A stretch of DNA of 25,874 nucleotides from positions 1 through 25,874 of the IMG/VR virus record IMGVR_UViG_3300001419_000041. One strand, 5' to 3'. Source of the DNA: a virus. Below, in pieces: positions 12,890 through 17,693 of the stretch. The notes under the pieces are model-generated. The model was not told the DNA's origin. It did no database searches and saw only the letters and a program-made list of their open reading frames with translations. The position numbers were made by a program, and so were the translations under genes. Every line of letters begins with the position of its first letter. The first letter of the stretch is position 1.

Positions 12890-12976
12890 TCATTTACCTC
12901 CGAGGTAGACGTAGGTGGCAGTAGCGAAAAGAGCGCCGAGGGAAACTGAGATAAGAAAGTTTATGACCTCATTCAT
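12890..12976 (-). CDS. 28-aa single-pass membrane microprotein
   Basis: Too short for routine gene calling, but the frame fills the space between two genes exactly. It starts at ATG 12976, inside the end of the EF-hand gene, and its TGA is one base before the next ATG. The product, MNEVINFLISVSLGALFATA followed by TYVYLGGK, is almost entirely one hydrophobic helix. GGAGGT lies just before its stop and serves as the ribosome site of the next gene. It could be a holin partner or translational coupler. Confidence 0.6.
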   Translation of the reverse strand: MNEVINFLISVSLGALFATATYVYLGGK

Positions 12977-13304
12977 CCCCCTTCTCCTTTTTCTTTTCTT
13001 TGCCTTTTACATACGCATCAGCACCGAAGAAGGCACTGACTACTAATCCAACGGACATGAAGTACACGCCAGACATGTCCCCGATAATCTTGGACTCGTT
13101 GTCAAAACCGAGCGCGCCGCTGGCGAACACGAACAGCGGGTATCCAAGCATGCCGAACAGCGCAAACCAGACCATCTTACGTTGCTGATCTCGCTTGGCA
13201 TCTTCGTCTTCCATCTCTCTGCGCATGCGCTCGATATGGATTTTGTATTCCGCTTCATCAATTTTTCCGTCGCCGTTGATGTCGGCTGCTTGAAAGTCAG
13301 TCAT
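12969..13304 (-). CDS. EF-hand membrane protein, 111 aa (holin candidate)
   Basis: Start chosen at ATG 13304, with GGAG five bases upstream; an earlier in-frame ATG at 13325 lies inside the preceding gene and would add seven unlikely residues. Residues 8-19 (DINGDGKIDEAE) are a textbook EF-hand loop: D8, N10, D12, K14, then E19. A charged helix (20-43) leads to two membrane segments (about 44-65 and 78-99) and a Lys-rich tail. Two membrane helices with a charged end fit a holin; the EF-hand suggests calcium sensing or binding on one side of the membrane. A single EF-hand usually needs a partner, so dimerisation is plausible. The gene begins one base after the oxygenase stop. Confidence 0.8.
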   Translation of the reverse strand: MTDFQAADINGDGKIDEAEYKIHIERMRREMEDEDAKRDQQRKMVWFALFGMLGYPLFVFASGALGFDNESKIIGDMSGVYFMSVGLVVSAFFGADAYVKGKEKKKEKGDE

Positions 13305-13305
13305 A

Positions 13306-13854
13306 TTATCTCCAGTGCGGGCCATACGCCCAAGAAACCATACTCCGCCTGATCCCGGAAGTTACGGGCGCAACCCTATGCTGTAAGAAACTCGGGAACA
13401 CTATAACTGACCCTTGTTCTAGTGTAATTTTTTCTATATCGGTGCCGTTTCCTATGTAAAGCTCGCCGCCTTCAAACTCAGACGTATCAGTTAGTAAAAT
13501 AATACAGGACAACTTTCTGTCATACGCCTGCGGCGTCGCGTGCAAAAAAGAGTCAATGTGAAAATCGTAAAATGCGTTATTTTCCCCGTTGTACTTAGTG
13601 TACTGGCACTCTATTGAGTCTGTTACATCAATACCAAAAGCCTCTCGGTTCGCGTGCCACGTGTACATACGGACCATAGACACTAAATCTTGATCAGACG
13701 CAAAAAAAGTTTCGCTTATGCGCTGTTCAGGATCATTTCGACCTTCAGCATCAACGGTGGCGGAAGTCACCTTAGAGTCATACCGCTGTACCCATTGATC
13801 GCAGACTTCTGCTGCTACCGTTCCTTTAGGCCAAACCCAGTACTTATATCTCAT
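13306..13854 (-). CDS. 2OG-Fe(II) oxygenase, PKHD-type prolyl-hydroxylase-like, 182 aa
   Basis: The double-stranded beta-helix signature is complete: H99-I-D101 in FYDFHIDSF, a GGEL turn at 129-132, distal H159 in FPSFLQHRVAP and Arg169/170 in SGIRRSMVSW for 2-oxoglutarate. This is the pattern of P4H/PKHD-type Fe(II) dioxygenases (YbiX/PiuC-like). The enzyme would hydroxylate a protein or small-molecule substrate using oxygen and 2-oxoglutarate. The gene overlaps the preceding oxygenase by 11 bases, so the two are co-translated and may act together. AGGA lies ahead of ATG 13854. The substrate is unknown; nearby secreted or structural proteins are possible targets. Confidence 0.88.
   Translation of the reverse strand: MRYKYWVWPKGTVAAEVCDQWVQRYDSKVTSATVDAEGRNDPEQRISETFFASDQDLVSMVRMYTWHANREAFGIDVTDSIECQYTKYNGENNAFYDFHIDSFLHATPQAYDRKLSCIILLTDTSEFEGGELYIGNGTDIEKITLEQGSVIVFPSFLQHRVAPVTSGIRRSMVSWAYGPHWR
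13310..13313 (-). promoter_or_regulatory. GGAG ribosome binding site that fixes the EF-hand gene start
   Basis: On the minus strand GGAG is followed by ATAAT and then the ATG at 13304, an ideal spacing. This favours the shorter EF-hand protein over the upstream in-frame ATG at 13325. Confidence 0.6.
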
Positions 13855-14419
13855 TTTTTCCTACTATAAAGTTAAACGCTGCGGAAACACGCAGTTCATC
13901 GCTTTCGTTTCGATCCACAAAATGATTCATGGTGGCTGGAAAAACGACTAGCCTACCTTCCGTCGGTGTTATTGAGTAGTTACTCCAGTTCAGAGCGTTC
14001 AATCTATCAAAGCCGGGGACTATTGGCGTTATGCCGGGCCGCTCAAAAAACAGATCACCGCAATTTTCTGGGGCCTTCAAAAACAAAACTGCTGATAGGC
14101 AAACACCCAAATGATTGTGCAGCCGGTTGTAGTCGTGCTTACCATTTATGTTCAGCCAATAGCTTTCCAGCTTTAAGGCAGAGTCGAAGCCATAAGCGTA
14201 CGCGGCTTGATTTGCGTGTTCTAGCACCAAATCAACTACGCCATCAAAAAAGGGATTATCTTTGTACTTGTAAGGGCAAGACTGCCAACCACCAGCGTTA
14301 CTTATTTTGCTGCCTTCAGATTCATGCTGTAATTTGAAAATTTCAGATAAGCATACGTCAGCTACTGGCAAACCTTCGCTTATAAAAATAGAAGTGGTAA
14401 AAGGCTGAAATTCGATCAT
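13844..14419 (-). CDS. 2OG-Fe(II) oxygenase, TIGR02466-like, 191 aa
   Basis: The fold signature includes SYWLNINGKHDYNRLHNHLG, where H101-N-H103 occupies the position of the first metal ligands. LVVFPATMNHFVD gives the distal His (H166), and ELRVSAAFNF gives R177 for 2-oxoglutarate. The 'H-x-H ... FP...H.V......R.S..FN' layout matches the putative 2OG-Fe(II) family called TIGR02466 / 2OG-FeII_Oxy_5. The usual Asp/Glu of HxD is not obvious, so the metal set may be atypical. Its ATG overlaps the stop of the coiled-coil membrane gene (TAATG), and its 3' end overlaps the second oxygenase. Substrate unknown. Confidence 0.82.
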   Translation of the reverse strand: MIEFQPFTTSIFISEGLPVADVCLSEIFKLQHESEGSKISNAGGWQSCPYKYKDNPFFDGVVDLVLEHANQAAYAYGFDSALKLESYWLNINGKHDYNRLHNHLGVCLSAVLFLKAPENCGDLFFERPGITPIVPGFDRLNALNWSNYSITPTEGRLVVFPATMNHFVDRNESDELRVSAAFNFIVGKNEI

Positions 14420-14865
14420 TAGTTCGCCAAAGGGTTGTCCAGAGCCTTCTGGAGTTTGTCCTCTAACTCGGCTTTGGTCTCCTCGACCTTAGCCTCGAAC
14501 TTGTCCATTTTATCCTCGAACCGCACGATCTTGTCGTTGACCCGCTTCTCGATGTCGTAAGTCAGCTGCTTTGCATCGCGTAAATTCTGCTCGATGGATT
14601 CCAGCAAGCGTTCCTGAGTTTCGATCTTGTTGCTAGTCTGCTCCATCTGGGCAGCGTAGGCTCCGAGGTCGAGACTAGCAATTTCCTCTACCTTTTGGTA
14701 CATCAGAAACCCTGCATATAAAGCACCAAGTGCGCTACTGCCCACACCGCCAGCAACCACCAGCCCAGTCCAATTAAAACTAAACCCCAAGACGGTGAAT
14801 TTCTTTTGCGCCAGTGCATCCTTCGCCTCCTCGAATTTGTCCAGTTTGTCGTCTAAATCCGCCAT
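14419..14865 (-). CDS. Membrane-anchored coiled-coil protein, 148 aa
   Basis: A charged start (MADLDDKLDKFEEAKDALAQ) precedes one or two hydrophobic stretches at residues 27-57 (FSFNWTGLVVAGGVGSSALG, then ALYAGFLMYQ). The rest is a long heptad-rich helix (75-145) with KVEETKAELEDKLQKALD near the end. The layout suggests a single-pass inner-membrane protein with a periplasmic or cytoplasmic coiled coil, compatible with a spanin or a membrane scaffold. The ATG at 14865 follows CGAGG and the AT-rich gap described separately. No enzyme motif. Confidence 0.8.
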   Translation of the reverse strand: MADLDDKLDKFEEAKDALAQKKFTVLGFSFNWTGLVVAGGVGSSALGALYAGFLMYQKVEEIASLDLGAYAAQMEQTSNKIETQERLLESIEQNLRDAKQLTYDIEKRVNDKIVRFEDKMDKFEAKVEETKAELEDKLQKALDNPLAN

Positions 14866-14876
14866 TTATACCTCGG

Positions 14877-14905
14877 CATATAATCGACTATAATTCAATT
14901 ATCAA
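14877..14905 (-). promoter_or_regulatory. Weak sigma70-like promoter candidate
   Basis: On the minus strand TTGATA (14900-14905) and TATATG (14877-14882) are separated by 17 bases in one of the largest and most AT-rich gaps of the window. The -10 box matches only four of six consensus bases, and the start of transcription would fall close to the ribosome site of the 148-residue gene. It could equally be chance in AT-rich spacer. Confidence 0.22.
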
Positions 14906-15305
14906 ACCCGCCTTGCAGCTTCTTCAGGTTCTCAAGTTCCTGTTGGAGTTTTTGCACCTCTAGCCGTCTAGCCTGAAGTTCCAGTTGATACAGCGTATTG
15001 CAGTTCACCCGCTCTCTAGGGGCATCTAGCGGGATCACGATGCGGGCATACAGGCCAATGTCTTTTGTGGTGGGATTGGCCGGGTCTTGACTGCTGAATG
15101 GGCTAGTCGCATTGTTCACGATGCCAGTCGCACCAATCTCAAAGTTGGTTGCCCCCCCGATACTGGCCGAGCATTCCATGTCACCCGCACGAATCTTGTC
15201 TGTGCCGTAGCTGCTGCCAGCGTTCGGCAGTTGCAGGTTGAGCGAGGAGTTATCAGCCATCGCTACACCGCAAAACATCAGTGCTATTGCTGGAATTTTG
15301 AGCAT
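14895..15305 (-). CDS. Secreted protein with C-terminal coiled coil, 136 aa
   Basis: Residues 1-17 form a Sec signal peptide ending AMA before DNSS. The mature part contains NLQLPNAGSSYGTDKIRAGD and MECSASIGGATNFEIGATGI, apparently beta-rich, with two Cys (44 and about 101) able to form a disulfide. DIGLYARIVIPLD follows, and the end is a heptad helix (LEVQKLQQELENLKKLQGG). It overlaps the preceding gene by 22 bases and closes the secreted-protein cluster. A trimeric or membrane-associated surface protein is plausible. The family is not named in my memory beyond similar marine phage proteins. Confidence 0.8.
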   Translation of the reverse strand: MLKIPAIALMFCGVAMADNSSLNLQLPNAGSSYGTDKIRAGDMECSASIGGATNFEIGATGIVNNATSPFSSQDPANPTTKDIGLYARIVIPLDAPRERVNCNTLYQLELQARRLEVQKLQQELENLKKLQGGFDN

Positions 15306-15664
15306 ATTCGGCTCGCCAGTAGAGTGCCTGTTCCATCACCACGCAGCTTGGATTGACTGCAAATGTATTGCGCTTTCTCTGCGTCTTTGCTGCGGATATA
15401 CACATCAAATTTGAGGTGTCCAAGATAGCGCACATGGGCCATGCGGTAGGCGCTCACGAATGGAATAGGCTGCCAGTCCTCAGTGAACACCCCGATCTCG
15501 TAGAACTCCACATCCTTCCGCTTGTTGAACAGTTCCATTTCCACCTTCGACACACCATCCACATGGGATGGCTTCAGCTTTGGGTAAGTCGGAACCATTT
15601 CATGCGCAAACGCTTGCCCACTAAGGAAAAGTAAGCATGTCGCCGAAATAGCTTTCGGGAACAT
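15284..15664 (-). CDS. Secreted protein resembling the N-terminal domain of a PapD-type chaperone, 126 aa
   Basis: The signal peptide (1-20) ends AFA before HEM. The mature protein reads as one immunoglobulin-like beta domain: KVEMELFNKRKDVEFYEIGV then FTEDWQPIPF, and LGHLKFDVYIRSKD. The pattern 'N...D..YEI.V....W.PIP' followed by a late strand with 'V.I' recalls the first domain of periplasmic pilus chaperones, but the PapD Arg/Lys anchors are not certain. Two Cys in the last third (YICSQSK, SRICSK) could pair. The start overlaps the preceding stop by one base (TGATG). A chaperone for the neighbouring secreted proteins is a hypothesis. The C-terminal chaperone domain is absent. Confidence 0.75.
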   Translation of the reverse strand: MFPKAISATCLLFLSGQAFAHEMVPTYPKLKPSHVDGVSKVEMELFNKRKDVEFYEIGVFTEDWQPIPFVSAYRMAHVRYLGHLKFDVYIRSKDAEKAQYICSQSKLRGDGTGTLLASRICSKFQQ

Positions 15665-15828
15665 CAGTCGTAAAGCCCCATTTCTTGGGCTTCCTTTGCC
15701 AGCTTATCAAGCGCATCTAGCCTCTGATACTCTGCCATGTCATGCTCGCCAATGGCTTGTCGCAGGGCATCCGCGGCTTTCTCTAGGGCATCCACAGCCT
15801 GTACCGCAGCTTTTCGCCAATCGCTCAT
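15664..15828 (-). CDS. Small helical protein, 54 aa
   Basis: Read directly from the minus strand: ATG at 15828 overlaps the preceding TGA (ATGA), and its TGA overlaps the next ATG. The product starts MSDWRKAAVQAVDALEKAAD and continues ALRQAIGEHDMAEYQRLDAL, ending EMGLYD. It is a single or paired amphipathic helix, acidic, with no signal peptide, unlike every neighbour in the cluster. It is probably cytoplasmic. Its exact fit between two genes supports it as real. Confidence 0.72.
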   Translation of the reverse strand: MSDWRKAAVQAVDALEKAADALRQAIGEHDMAEYQRLDALDKLAKEAQEMGLYD

Positions 15829-16328
15829 TGCGCGATACACTCCGCCACCACTACAGATCGGTAGGTTCCGCCCGGAAACGCCTTGTTGCCGCCACCACCG
15901 TACGTCGCGGTTGATGCGACCTTAAACCAAGTCGTGCCAGTGGCAACCAAGTCATATTCCTTGGTCTGGTCGAAAGTGACGGCATCCGTGTCGTAGTCCG
16001 CCATTGCCACGTCGGAAACCTCCTGCACCTCAACTGAACCCGTCCAAGTCACCATATCGCTCAGGCTTGGGCTGGCAGAAAACGCTGTTGGGTAAGTAAT
16101 CCGAGCCTTGTACGCATCCGCTAGGGAAACATCGTAGCGAACGATAGGCAGAACCCCGCCATCGGCAGGGGTGGTTGTCAGGGTATAGGCGTTTGGGTTG
16201 CCGTACACGCCAGCGGTATCCGTGTTAATCAGACAGCGACTCTGCACTGTGCCTTCGATTGGCACGTCCACTGCATACGCAGTTGCGCTACATAGACACA
16301 TTATCGCCACTATTTTGACATTTTTCAT
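15825..16328 (-). CDS. Secreted beta-rich protein, possibly pilin-like, 167 aa
   Basis: The signal peptide (1-19) ends AYA before VDVP. The mature protein begins VDVPIEGTVQSRCLINTDTA, with one Cys near the start and one four residues before the end (AECIAQ), a spacing that would tie the two edges together. The alternating hydrophobic pattern (ILPIV..., SVEVQEVSD, FKVASTATYGGGG, GTYRSVVVAECIAQ) suggests a beta-sandwich of about 150 residues. Size, the early 'V.G.V...C' and the closing strand are similar in outline to fimbrial or coat-type subunits, but I cannot confirm homology. It overlaps both neighbours by four bases. Confidence 0.78.
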   Translation of the reverse strand: MKNVKIVAIMCLCSATAYAVDVPIEGTVQSRCLINTDTAGVYGNPNAYTLTTTPADGGVLPIVRYDVSLADAYKARITYPTAFSASPSLSDMVTWTGSVEVQEVSDVAMADYDTDAVTFDQTKEYDLVATGTTWFKVASTATYGGGGNKAFPGGTYRSVVVAECIAQ

Positions 16329-17200
16329 TTGTATTGCTCCCCCACCATCTTGGTGTGCAATTTGTCGTTCGCCATACTGCGAAATGCCCGCTTATTGTCG
16401 GGCAGTTTGTTGTCTACCAGTACCACTGCTTCCTGATAGGTGCCGCCGGGTATTGTGGCTGCATAATATTGAGTCATTGTGACAGGATTCATCGCCCGAA
16501 GCATAGCGTTTTGCGTCATCTGGTTAGCGATGGTCAGGGCGTTGTCGTTGGCAGCCAGAGCCTTTTCCATATCAGGCTCTTCCTCCTCATCCTTGTCTTT
16601 CTTCTCGGCCTCGTCGTCCTCATACAGCTCTCTGTCAGTTTCAGCTGTGGCTATGCCAACAGCATCGTCCTCTAGGGCGTTGTAGGGGGTGATTACAGGT
16701 AAATCCGGCAGCGGAGCGACGTACGCCGGACAGGACGGGTCAGATTGAGGGTCAAAGCAGGGGTCTACCCTGTACGTGTAGATGACCGTTGGGTCTTCTA
16801 CGCTACCCACTCCCGTGGTTTCGATTGAGCCGTCGCCCCAGTATTTGACGGGGCTATATCCAATCGGTACGAGCTTGTTGATTGTCTGCCCAGACTTGCC
16901 CGACCAATCATCCGTGGACCTGAATATATATCCACCGTCAACGGCGTTTTCATTTTGGATGCTAACTGAGAAGTTGTCTGGTCGCTCTTTGACTGCGGTG
17001 TAGCGGTAGATGACGCCGGTAATATCGACCCCCGGAACTGGCGCCACTCCCAGTACAGGTTCAGACATAGCCCAATTAGTACCCCCAACAGCAGCATTAG
17101 CGCTATAGCCATACTGATAGTCAGAATAGGAGGGCTGCGCCAAAGACGCCACCAATAATGCTGAGAGCTTTATTCCGCTTATCTTCAGCTGTTGGCTCAT
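16325..17200 (-). CDS. Large secreted protein of the cluster, 291 aa
   Basis: The start at ATG 17200 lies inside the preceding gene, but GGAGAGG is close upstream and residues 1-26 form a signal peptide (ISGIKLSALLVASLAQ, cleavage after SYS), so this start is preferred. The mature part is aromatic and beta-rich (SDYQYGYSANAAVGGTNWAM; DITGVIYRYTAVKER). VDPCFDPQSDPSCPAYVAPL contains a close Cys pair. An acidic/lysine linker (about 190-212, EDDEAEKKDKDEEEEPD) precedes a C-terminal helical domain (EKALAANDNALTIANQMTQN). The highly acidic linker could be flexible or calcium binding. The product probably acts outside the cytoplasm. Family unknown. Confidence 0.78.
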   Translation of the reverse strand: MSQQLKISGIKLSALLVASLAQPSYSDYQYGYSANAAVGGTNWAMSEPVLGVAPVPGVDITGVIYRYTAVKERPDNFSVSIQNENAVDGGYIFRSTDDWSGKSGQTINKLVPIGYSPVKYWGDGSIETTGVGSVEDPTVIYTYRVDPCFDPQSDPSCPAYVAPLPDLPVITPYNALEDDAVGIATAETDRELYEDDEAEKKDKDEEEEPDMEKALAANDNALTIANQMTQNAMLRAMNPVTMTQYYAATIPGGTYQEAVVLVDNKLPDNKRAFRSMANDKLHTKMVGEQYK

Positions 17201-17693
17201 CGTCCTCTCCTTCTACAGGGGTTTTGTCCGTATGCACCTGCCAAGCAGCTTTTGCTGCGTCACCAATCAAACCGTCGTATGGGCAAGGTGTGCCTGCGTT
17301 CATCATGGCGTCAAACACCTTTTTGTCTTGGCACATTACCGAGACAGCGGCTACTTTCATGCCCATGTCGTAGAGGGTTTTGGCGTTCTTGAGCCTGATA
17401 CAGTTTTCTTCGGTAAAGGTTGAACCGACTGAGATACCGAGAATTTGAGTTTGAACTGCACCGGTAGCCCCGATTGTGCAGAGATCAGAATTATTCCCAG
17501 CTGAAAACTGCGGTGCGATAGCCGACGGTGGCGGGCTTTTGACAGTAGTAACCTGATTGCCGTTAGTTGTTACGGTGCTGGTGGATTCAGTGACGATCGG
17601 GTCAGCGGCAAAAGTGTTAGCCGAATAAGCAATGAGGCCGCCCAAGAGCAGCCCCACTACCAACCAACCTACTTGCTCGACTGGATGCTTCAT
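17121..17693 (-). CDS. Secreted or membrane-anchored protein, 190 aa
   Basis: Residues 8-30 (VGWLVVGLLLGGLIAYSANT) form a signal sequence or anchor, with a possible cleavage after TFA. The middle has four Cys: SDLCTIGATGAVQTQILGIS, ENCIRLKNAKTLYDMGMKVA, AAVSVMCQDKKVFDAMMNAG and TPCPYDGLIG. An acidic linker (VEGEDDEPTAEDKRNK) precedes a short C-terminal hydrophobic end (ALSIIGGVFGAALLF). The 'MCQD..VFDAMMNAGTPCPYDG' segment feels conserved in marine phage proteins, from memory. It is the first gene of the secreted cluster, three bases after the collar fibre gene. Its last 80 bases overlap the next gene in another frame. Confidence 0.78.
   Translation of the reverse strand: MKHPVEQVGWLVVGLLLGGLIAYSANTFAADPIVTESTSTVTTNGNQVTTVKSPPPSAIAPQFSAGNNSDLCTIGATGAVQTQILGISVGSTFTEENCIRLKNAKTLYDMGMKVAAVSVMCQDKKVFDAMMNAGTPCPYDGLIGDAAKAAWQVHTDKTPVEGEDDEPTAEDKRNKALSIIGGVFGAALLF

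Follow-up and report, generated by a model that had tools for sequence, protein, structure and literature searches.

A widespread phage gene cassette for exported proteins, with predicted pilin-like and chaperone-like folds

The window analysed here (the whole stretch of 25,874 nucleotides, positions 1 to 25,874 of the IMG/VR virus record IMGVR_UViG_3300001419_000041, and most of a contig of 26,076 bases in IMG/VR) carries, alongside phage tail and ejection genes, a compact cassette of genes mostly coding for exported proteins. Six open reading frames (ORFs) on the minus strand sit between a tail-fibre gene (18902-17697) and two genes of 2-oxoglutarate and Fe(II)-dependent (2OG-Fe(II)) oxygenases; they are named g1 to g6 by transcription order, and g7 is the next gene downstream. 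The coordinates, sizes and overlaps given for these six minus-strand ORFs in an initial annotation, made from the sequence alone, were all borne out, while the six-gene set itself had to be revised: g1, g2, g3, g5 and g6 are conserved, g4 is not a member, and g7, which lies beyond the annotated cluster, belongs to it.

All seven genes are on the minus strand. The product of g1 (17121-17693, 190 amino acids) has an N-terminal signal or anchor, a conserved four-cysteine domain and a hydrophobic C-terminal tail, and that of g2 (16325-17200, 291 amino acids) has a signal peptide and an acidic linker, without any family match. The exported g3 protein (15825-16328, 167 amino acids) resembles a pilin subunit in its predicted structure, an incomplete beta-sandwich with a free N-terminal extension and invariant Cys32 and Cys164, and its residues 24-32 (16233-16259), outside the predicted fold, hold a conserved I-x-G-x-V-x3-C segment as a putative donor strand. 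It is followed by g4 (15664-15828, 54 amino acids, or 58 from a GTG), a cytoplasmic helix that appears as a lineage-specific insertion, and by g5 (15284-15664, 126 amino acids), exported, with one predicted PapD-like (chaperone N-terminal) domain and with invariant Cys102 (F strand) and Cys121 (G strand). The third member of the core trio g3-g5-g6, g6 (14895-15305, 136 amino acids), is exported and combines two invariant cysteines with a charged, helical-looking C-terminus, and the conserved g7 (14419-14865, 148 amino acids) has a single N-terminal transmembrane segment and then a coiled coil ending in NPLAN. Note that g1 and g2 overlap in different frames, by 80 nucleotides in the window (17121-17200) and by 41-107 nucleotides in 96 of 96 loci related to it; the signal peptide of g2 is encoded by the same DNA as the hydrophobic tail of g1.

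Searches with single proteins were of little help. None of the six ORFs g1 to g6 passed the cut-off of a Pfam scan; g1 (phrog_20531, 6.7e-17), g3 and g6 (phrog_37374) matched PHROG families with unknown function, and single-protein searches of Pfam, PHROGs and NCBIfam suggested a function for none of the proteins. Sequence-profile searches of the PDB gave no match, and a search with the g5 relative of Vibrio phages brought chance-level matches only. Promoter and terminator scans gave matches at chance level.

Conservation of the cassette as a unit was more informative. With g5 as query, IMG/VR yielded 55 loci, a profile scan gave at least 488 stretches with g5 relatives (80 kept), and a separate scan gave at least 561 g3 relatives (79 loci examined), with loci shared between scans and some contigs being near-duplicates, so that distinct proteins number 72-86 per family. 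Neighbours occur in the same order in the 55 loci as far as the contigs extend, and the series g1-g2-g3-g5-g6-g7 runs unbroken on one strand in 125 of 125 loci, with members absent only at contig ends. In the independent g3 scan, g3 was found without g5 in 0 of 79 loci and without g6 in two, at the contig end, and g5 and g6 overlap or lie at most 17 nucleotides apart in 124 of 124. One g3 per genome was present in 18 phage records, and one g5 in 17 of them. With tblastn, g4 was recovered in 1 of 55 loci, and it was dropped as a cassette member. The recurring six-gene order considered in the initial annotation thus exists as a unit in hundreds of phage contigs, and as a core in Vibrio phage isolates, but without g4.

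The family looks essentially viral, since a profile scan of cellular genomes (84,980 species) yielded three contigs of metagenome-assembled genomes only. Genes near the cassette include, across contigs, those for the major head protein, capsid, portal, tail spike, ssb, phoH and ferredoxin; any flanking gene in common was seen in 22% of locus pairs, and cassette-bearing contigs reach 328 kb. From these varied flanks and this range of contigs, the cassette seems to be transferred as a block among lineages of phages. Its two halves are also found apart in phages. Relatives of g1 occur in Pelagibacter, Roseobacter and Achromobacter phages, together with g2-like and g7-like genes in the first two. 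In Pelagibacter and Roseobacter phages the g7 relatives, like g7 itself, are membrane coiled coils, short and with NPL at or near their end, and in the N4-like Achromobacter phage JWAlpha (locus L059, 4470-5384) a g1-like cysteine domain ends a secreted Gly/Asn-rich protein.

The other half, the g3-g5-g6 trio, is present in Vibrio phage isolates (tblastn with the Vibrio g3 and g5 gave 179 records each), and its genes carry a hypothetical annotation in the examined records. These Vibrio relatives of g3, g5 and g6 form PHROGs 25895, 25455 and 37374, in the same order, and no g1, g2 or g7 was found beside the trio in three Vibrio loci. Marine and Vibrio g3 profiles align with an hhalign probability of 94%; the g5 relation is weaker (hidden Markov model E 9e-5 for phage Bennett, hhalign probability 9%) and its assignment leans also on gene position. 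In Vibrio phages Bennett (g5; L063, 7597-8001) and 51E28.4 (g6; L058, 5920-6327), the annotated starts truncate signal peptides that longer ORFs restore. Literature searches on phage pilin-chaperone modules, and on the Vibrio and Pelagibacter phages that are carriers, found no description of the cassette.

Export was called by a simple hydrophobicity heuristic applied to the N-termini of the 72-86 distinct homologues per family. A strongly hydrophobic N-terminal stretch is present in 97-100% of the g1, g2, g3, g5 and g6 homologues versus 30% for g7. Past residue 25, exactly two cysteines were counted in 80 of 80 g3, 84 of 84 g5 and 86 of 86 g6 proteins, four or six in 71 of 72 g1 proteins, and 0, 2 or 4 in g2. 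Such even numbers at fixed positions are, as judged from sequence, the pattern of disulfide-bonded periplasmic proteins; together with the hydrophobic N-termini, they uphold the Sec-type signals first proposed for five of the genes. In addition, a convincing lipobox, LTGC or VAGC, was seen in four of the g3 proteins, so that at least some g3 would be lipid-anchored, which fits anchoring in the envelope.

An AlphaFold2 model of g5, built with 69 sequences, reached a predicted local distance difference test (pLDDT) score of 88, and both Foldseek and VIA-align gave the N-terminal domains of FaeE, DraB, Caf1M and FimC as its top PDB matches. With FimC and Caf1M, the VIA-align Z was 9.2 over 95 residues, and residues 25-126 of g5 aligned to the first domain only. 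The protein is therefore predicted to be a PapD-like N-terminal domain alone, in agreement with the earlier impression that it looked like the N-terminal immunoglobulin (Ig) domain of a pilus chaperone. Its invariant cysteines fall in model strands F and G, where they would be placed for an F1-G1 disulfide, the mark of FGL chaperones (PMC4133393). In the G strand, where a chaperone would have alternating hydrophobic donor residues and a basic anchor pair, g5 shows an alternation V-x-S-x-I-x-S-x-F plus K/R, without a clear counterpart of Arg8. A BFVD search with g5 gave two matches below 0.001, both uninformative.

For g3, the AlphaFold model (pLDDT 91) leaves residues 1-31 outside the fold, and the top Foldseek matches were CfaB, the PapG pilin domain, FimF, FimG and CsuA/B, with E values of ~0.007-0.02. 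At the free N-terminus, 80 of 80 homologues read I-x-G-x-V/I-x3-C, and a Gly at -14 with hydrophobic residues at -8, -6, -4 and -2 marks the C-terminus, again in 80 of 80. Using 18 E. coli K-12 pilins as a yardstick, the N-terminal pattern phi-x-G-x-phi before the first Cys was found in 13 of 18 and the C-terminal pattern in 17 of 18. Both patterns together occur in 0 of 2011 other ORFs of the same loci and in 6e-5 of shuffles, frequencies to be read as a consistency check rather than a blind test, as the patterns were written after viewing both the g3 and the pilin sets.

The cluster contains no usher-sized gene, as initially noted, and an usher (PF00577) was found in none of 18 cassette-bearing phage records of up to 328 kb, a search that covers the phage and not the host and for which the E. 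coli control was positive. Altogether, we tentatively favour, at somewhat under even chances, a mobile phage cassette that encodes an exported, usher-less pilin-chaperone pair together with envelope partners and that alters the surface of the infected cell. In the scheme that we infer for strand donation, partners, timing and purpose, g3, g5 and g6 (and g1 and g2) would be exported late in infection via the host Sec system and oxidised in the periplasm, and g5, with its single PapD-like domain, would fill the open groove of g3 with its own G strand. The g3 subunit would then pass to a further donor, which could be the N-terminal extension of a second g3 molecule or a different partner, for instance g6, and the product would be a short donor-strand-complemented complex kept in the envelope rather than a long pilus. 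Late remodelling of the envelope of the infected cell seems the most likely role, and its likeliest use would be a surface change that masks receptors against superinfection or against the loss of progeny to debris. A more specific form of this idea, which we regard as possible but doubtful, would be a phage-owned, usher-independent donor-strand system, in which a one-domain chaperone passes a pilin-like subunit to a phage-encoded envelope acceptor, leading to a phage-built surface structure, and in which the block has spread through unrelated marine phages.

Several observations weigh against a pilin-chaperone pair of this kind. The second Ig domain (D2) of chaperones is absent, g5 being a one-domain protein of 126 amino acids with aligned homologues of single-domain length too; it does not match Pfam PapD_N (PF00345), and its hhalign probability against E. 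coli K-12 chaperones is <1%. Likewise, g3 matches neither PF00419 nor PF05229, and hhalign comparisons with E. coli K-12 chaperones and pilins were not significant (probability ~3% or less). Without an usher, a second chaperone domain or a profile match, the cassette does not belong to the chaperone-usher pathway, though it may function like a portion of such a pathway. VIA-align ranked other beta-sandwiches first for g3, at Z 6-8, and no chaperone-usher pilin stood among the 50 matches listed. In the Vibrio g3, the C-terminal pattern is kept in two of three proteins and the N-terminal Gly motif is missing. The residual co-variation between g3 and g5 is weak (partial Mantel 0.10), and at loci L016-L019 g5 is ~54% identical to that of the window versus ~90% for g3, g6 and g7; such a difference (90% for g3 and 55% for g5 at L016) means that g5 is exchangeable separately, and the pattern suggests recombination that swapped g5 alone. 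Finally, a link to adjacent receptor-binding proteins was considered and weakened, the flanks (ssb, phoH, capsid, portal, spike) being too variable.

Since Foldseek favours pilins modestly and VIA-align favours other sandwiches, g3 is likely, though not proven, to be a pilin-class incomplete beta-sandwich; of the pilin-type subunit with terminal Cys residues first proposed, the predicted pilin-like sandwich and the terminal cysteine pair (the same in all 80 homologues) stand, whereas the VIA-align ranking does not place pilins above other sandwiches. The leading alternative, which we nevertheless find unlikely, is that g5 and g3 are generic Ig-like sandwiches, i.e., exported binding proteins without strand donation or any chaperone-client relation. 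Profile similarity is indeed absent, MSP/VAP domains (eukaryotic MSP, same superfamily) are nearly as close to g5 (Z ~8-9) as the chaperones, and the structures preferred by VIA-align for g3 are MSCRAMM, integrin and carbohydrate-binding domains. However, g3 and g5 are neighbours without exception, with the gene order and the compartment expected of a pilin and its chaperone, and all g3 have the pilin end motifs as all g5 have the F-G cysteine pair.

Partial co-variation for other gene pairs was highest for the non-adjacent g2 and g7 (0.48), followed by g1-g3 (0.44), g5-g6 (0.36) and g3-g6 (0.31); these values hint at partners but fall short of proof, as genes that are linked have a common history. 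The g2-g7 value is one argument for a lysis accessory, in which g7, as an inner-membrane coiled coil, and g2 or g1 would form a spanin-type complex modified by the trio. The shape of g7 is i-spanin-like, and in HTVC023P, CRP-810 and ctXG6705 an endolysin gene is found close to relatives of g1-g2-g7. Nevertheless, g2 is mostly without a lipobox and hence mostly not a lipoprotein, the trio of Vibrio phages occurs without g1, g2 and g7 alongside, and phage Bennett has separate spanin, holin and endolysin annotations, which together make a lysis role rather improbable.

With a pilin-like subunit and a chaperone domain but no usher, the g3:g5 pair might instead interfere with the chaperone-usher pili of the host, as a decoy or as a terminator of the kind known from FimI and PapH; by entering host usher assembly and halting it, the pair would remove a receptor or a surface structure that competes. 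We consider this very unlikely, as many phage lineages carry the cassette with no evidence of ushers in their hosts; the one Rhodobacteraceae bin that carries the cassette has no usher, although this bin may not be the host. It is still harder to regard the products as virion proteins (e.g., decorations of fibres or heads) whose N-termini resemble signals. The cassette does have tail-fibre genes as neighbours in the window, and in Vibrio phage pVco-14 it lies between genes for capsid and tail, but signal peptides and cysteines in even number are found throughout and the flanks are often non-structural (e.g., ssb and phoH).

Downstream of the cassette, the two adjacent 2OG-Fe(II) oxygenase genes (13306-14419) differ from each other, and a 118-amino-acid protein (12969-13325) has an EF-hand-like loop (DINGDGKIDEAE) and then two hydrophobic segments.

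If the folds and the pairing hold, the usher-less pilin-chaperone cassette would be a phage module that is widespread and seems to have gone undescribed. Its carriers number at least several hundred among marine viral contigs, and cultivated Vibrio phages have its core, so that its function is directly testable.

Among known systems, the cassette shares with chaperone-usher pili (FimA/FimC/FimD; FGL type Caf1M/DraB) a predicted PapD-like N-terminal domain and a predicted pilin-like incomplete sandwich with an N-terminal extension, together with the F-G cysteine pair of the FGL type, adjacent genes and Sec export. In contrast to them, it has neither usher, second chaperone domain nor profile match, contains one subunit gene and is phage-encoded; if our reading is true, donor-strand chemistry would reach beyond the chaperone-usher pathway. 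The Llp protein of phage T5 is one small receptor-blocking lipoprotein, thus also an exported phage protein able to mask a receptor, whereas the cassette is multi-protein with a chaperone-like member. PHROGs 25895, 25455 and 37374 (Vibrio) represent the same families in the same order as the trio, with function recorded as unknown, and the reading would provide a candidate function for these three blank families. Lastly, pelagiphages and other marine phages carry curli (type VIII secretion) export modules (PMC9599517), as does methylophage Melnitz (PMC9004378), so marine phages do carry envelope-assembly cassettes, whose purpose is still debated (PMC9599517; PMC9004378). Like these modules, the present cassette comprises several genes for the envelope, belongs to marine phages and is distributed over phage families; unlike them, it lacks the CsgG pore (PF03783) in all 18 cassette-bearing phage records and has predicted pilin-chaperone folds rather than amyloid export. 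If our reading is true, it would join phage curli as a second class of surface-assembly cassettes encoded by phages.

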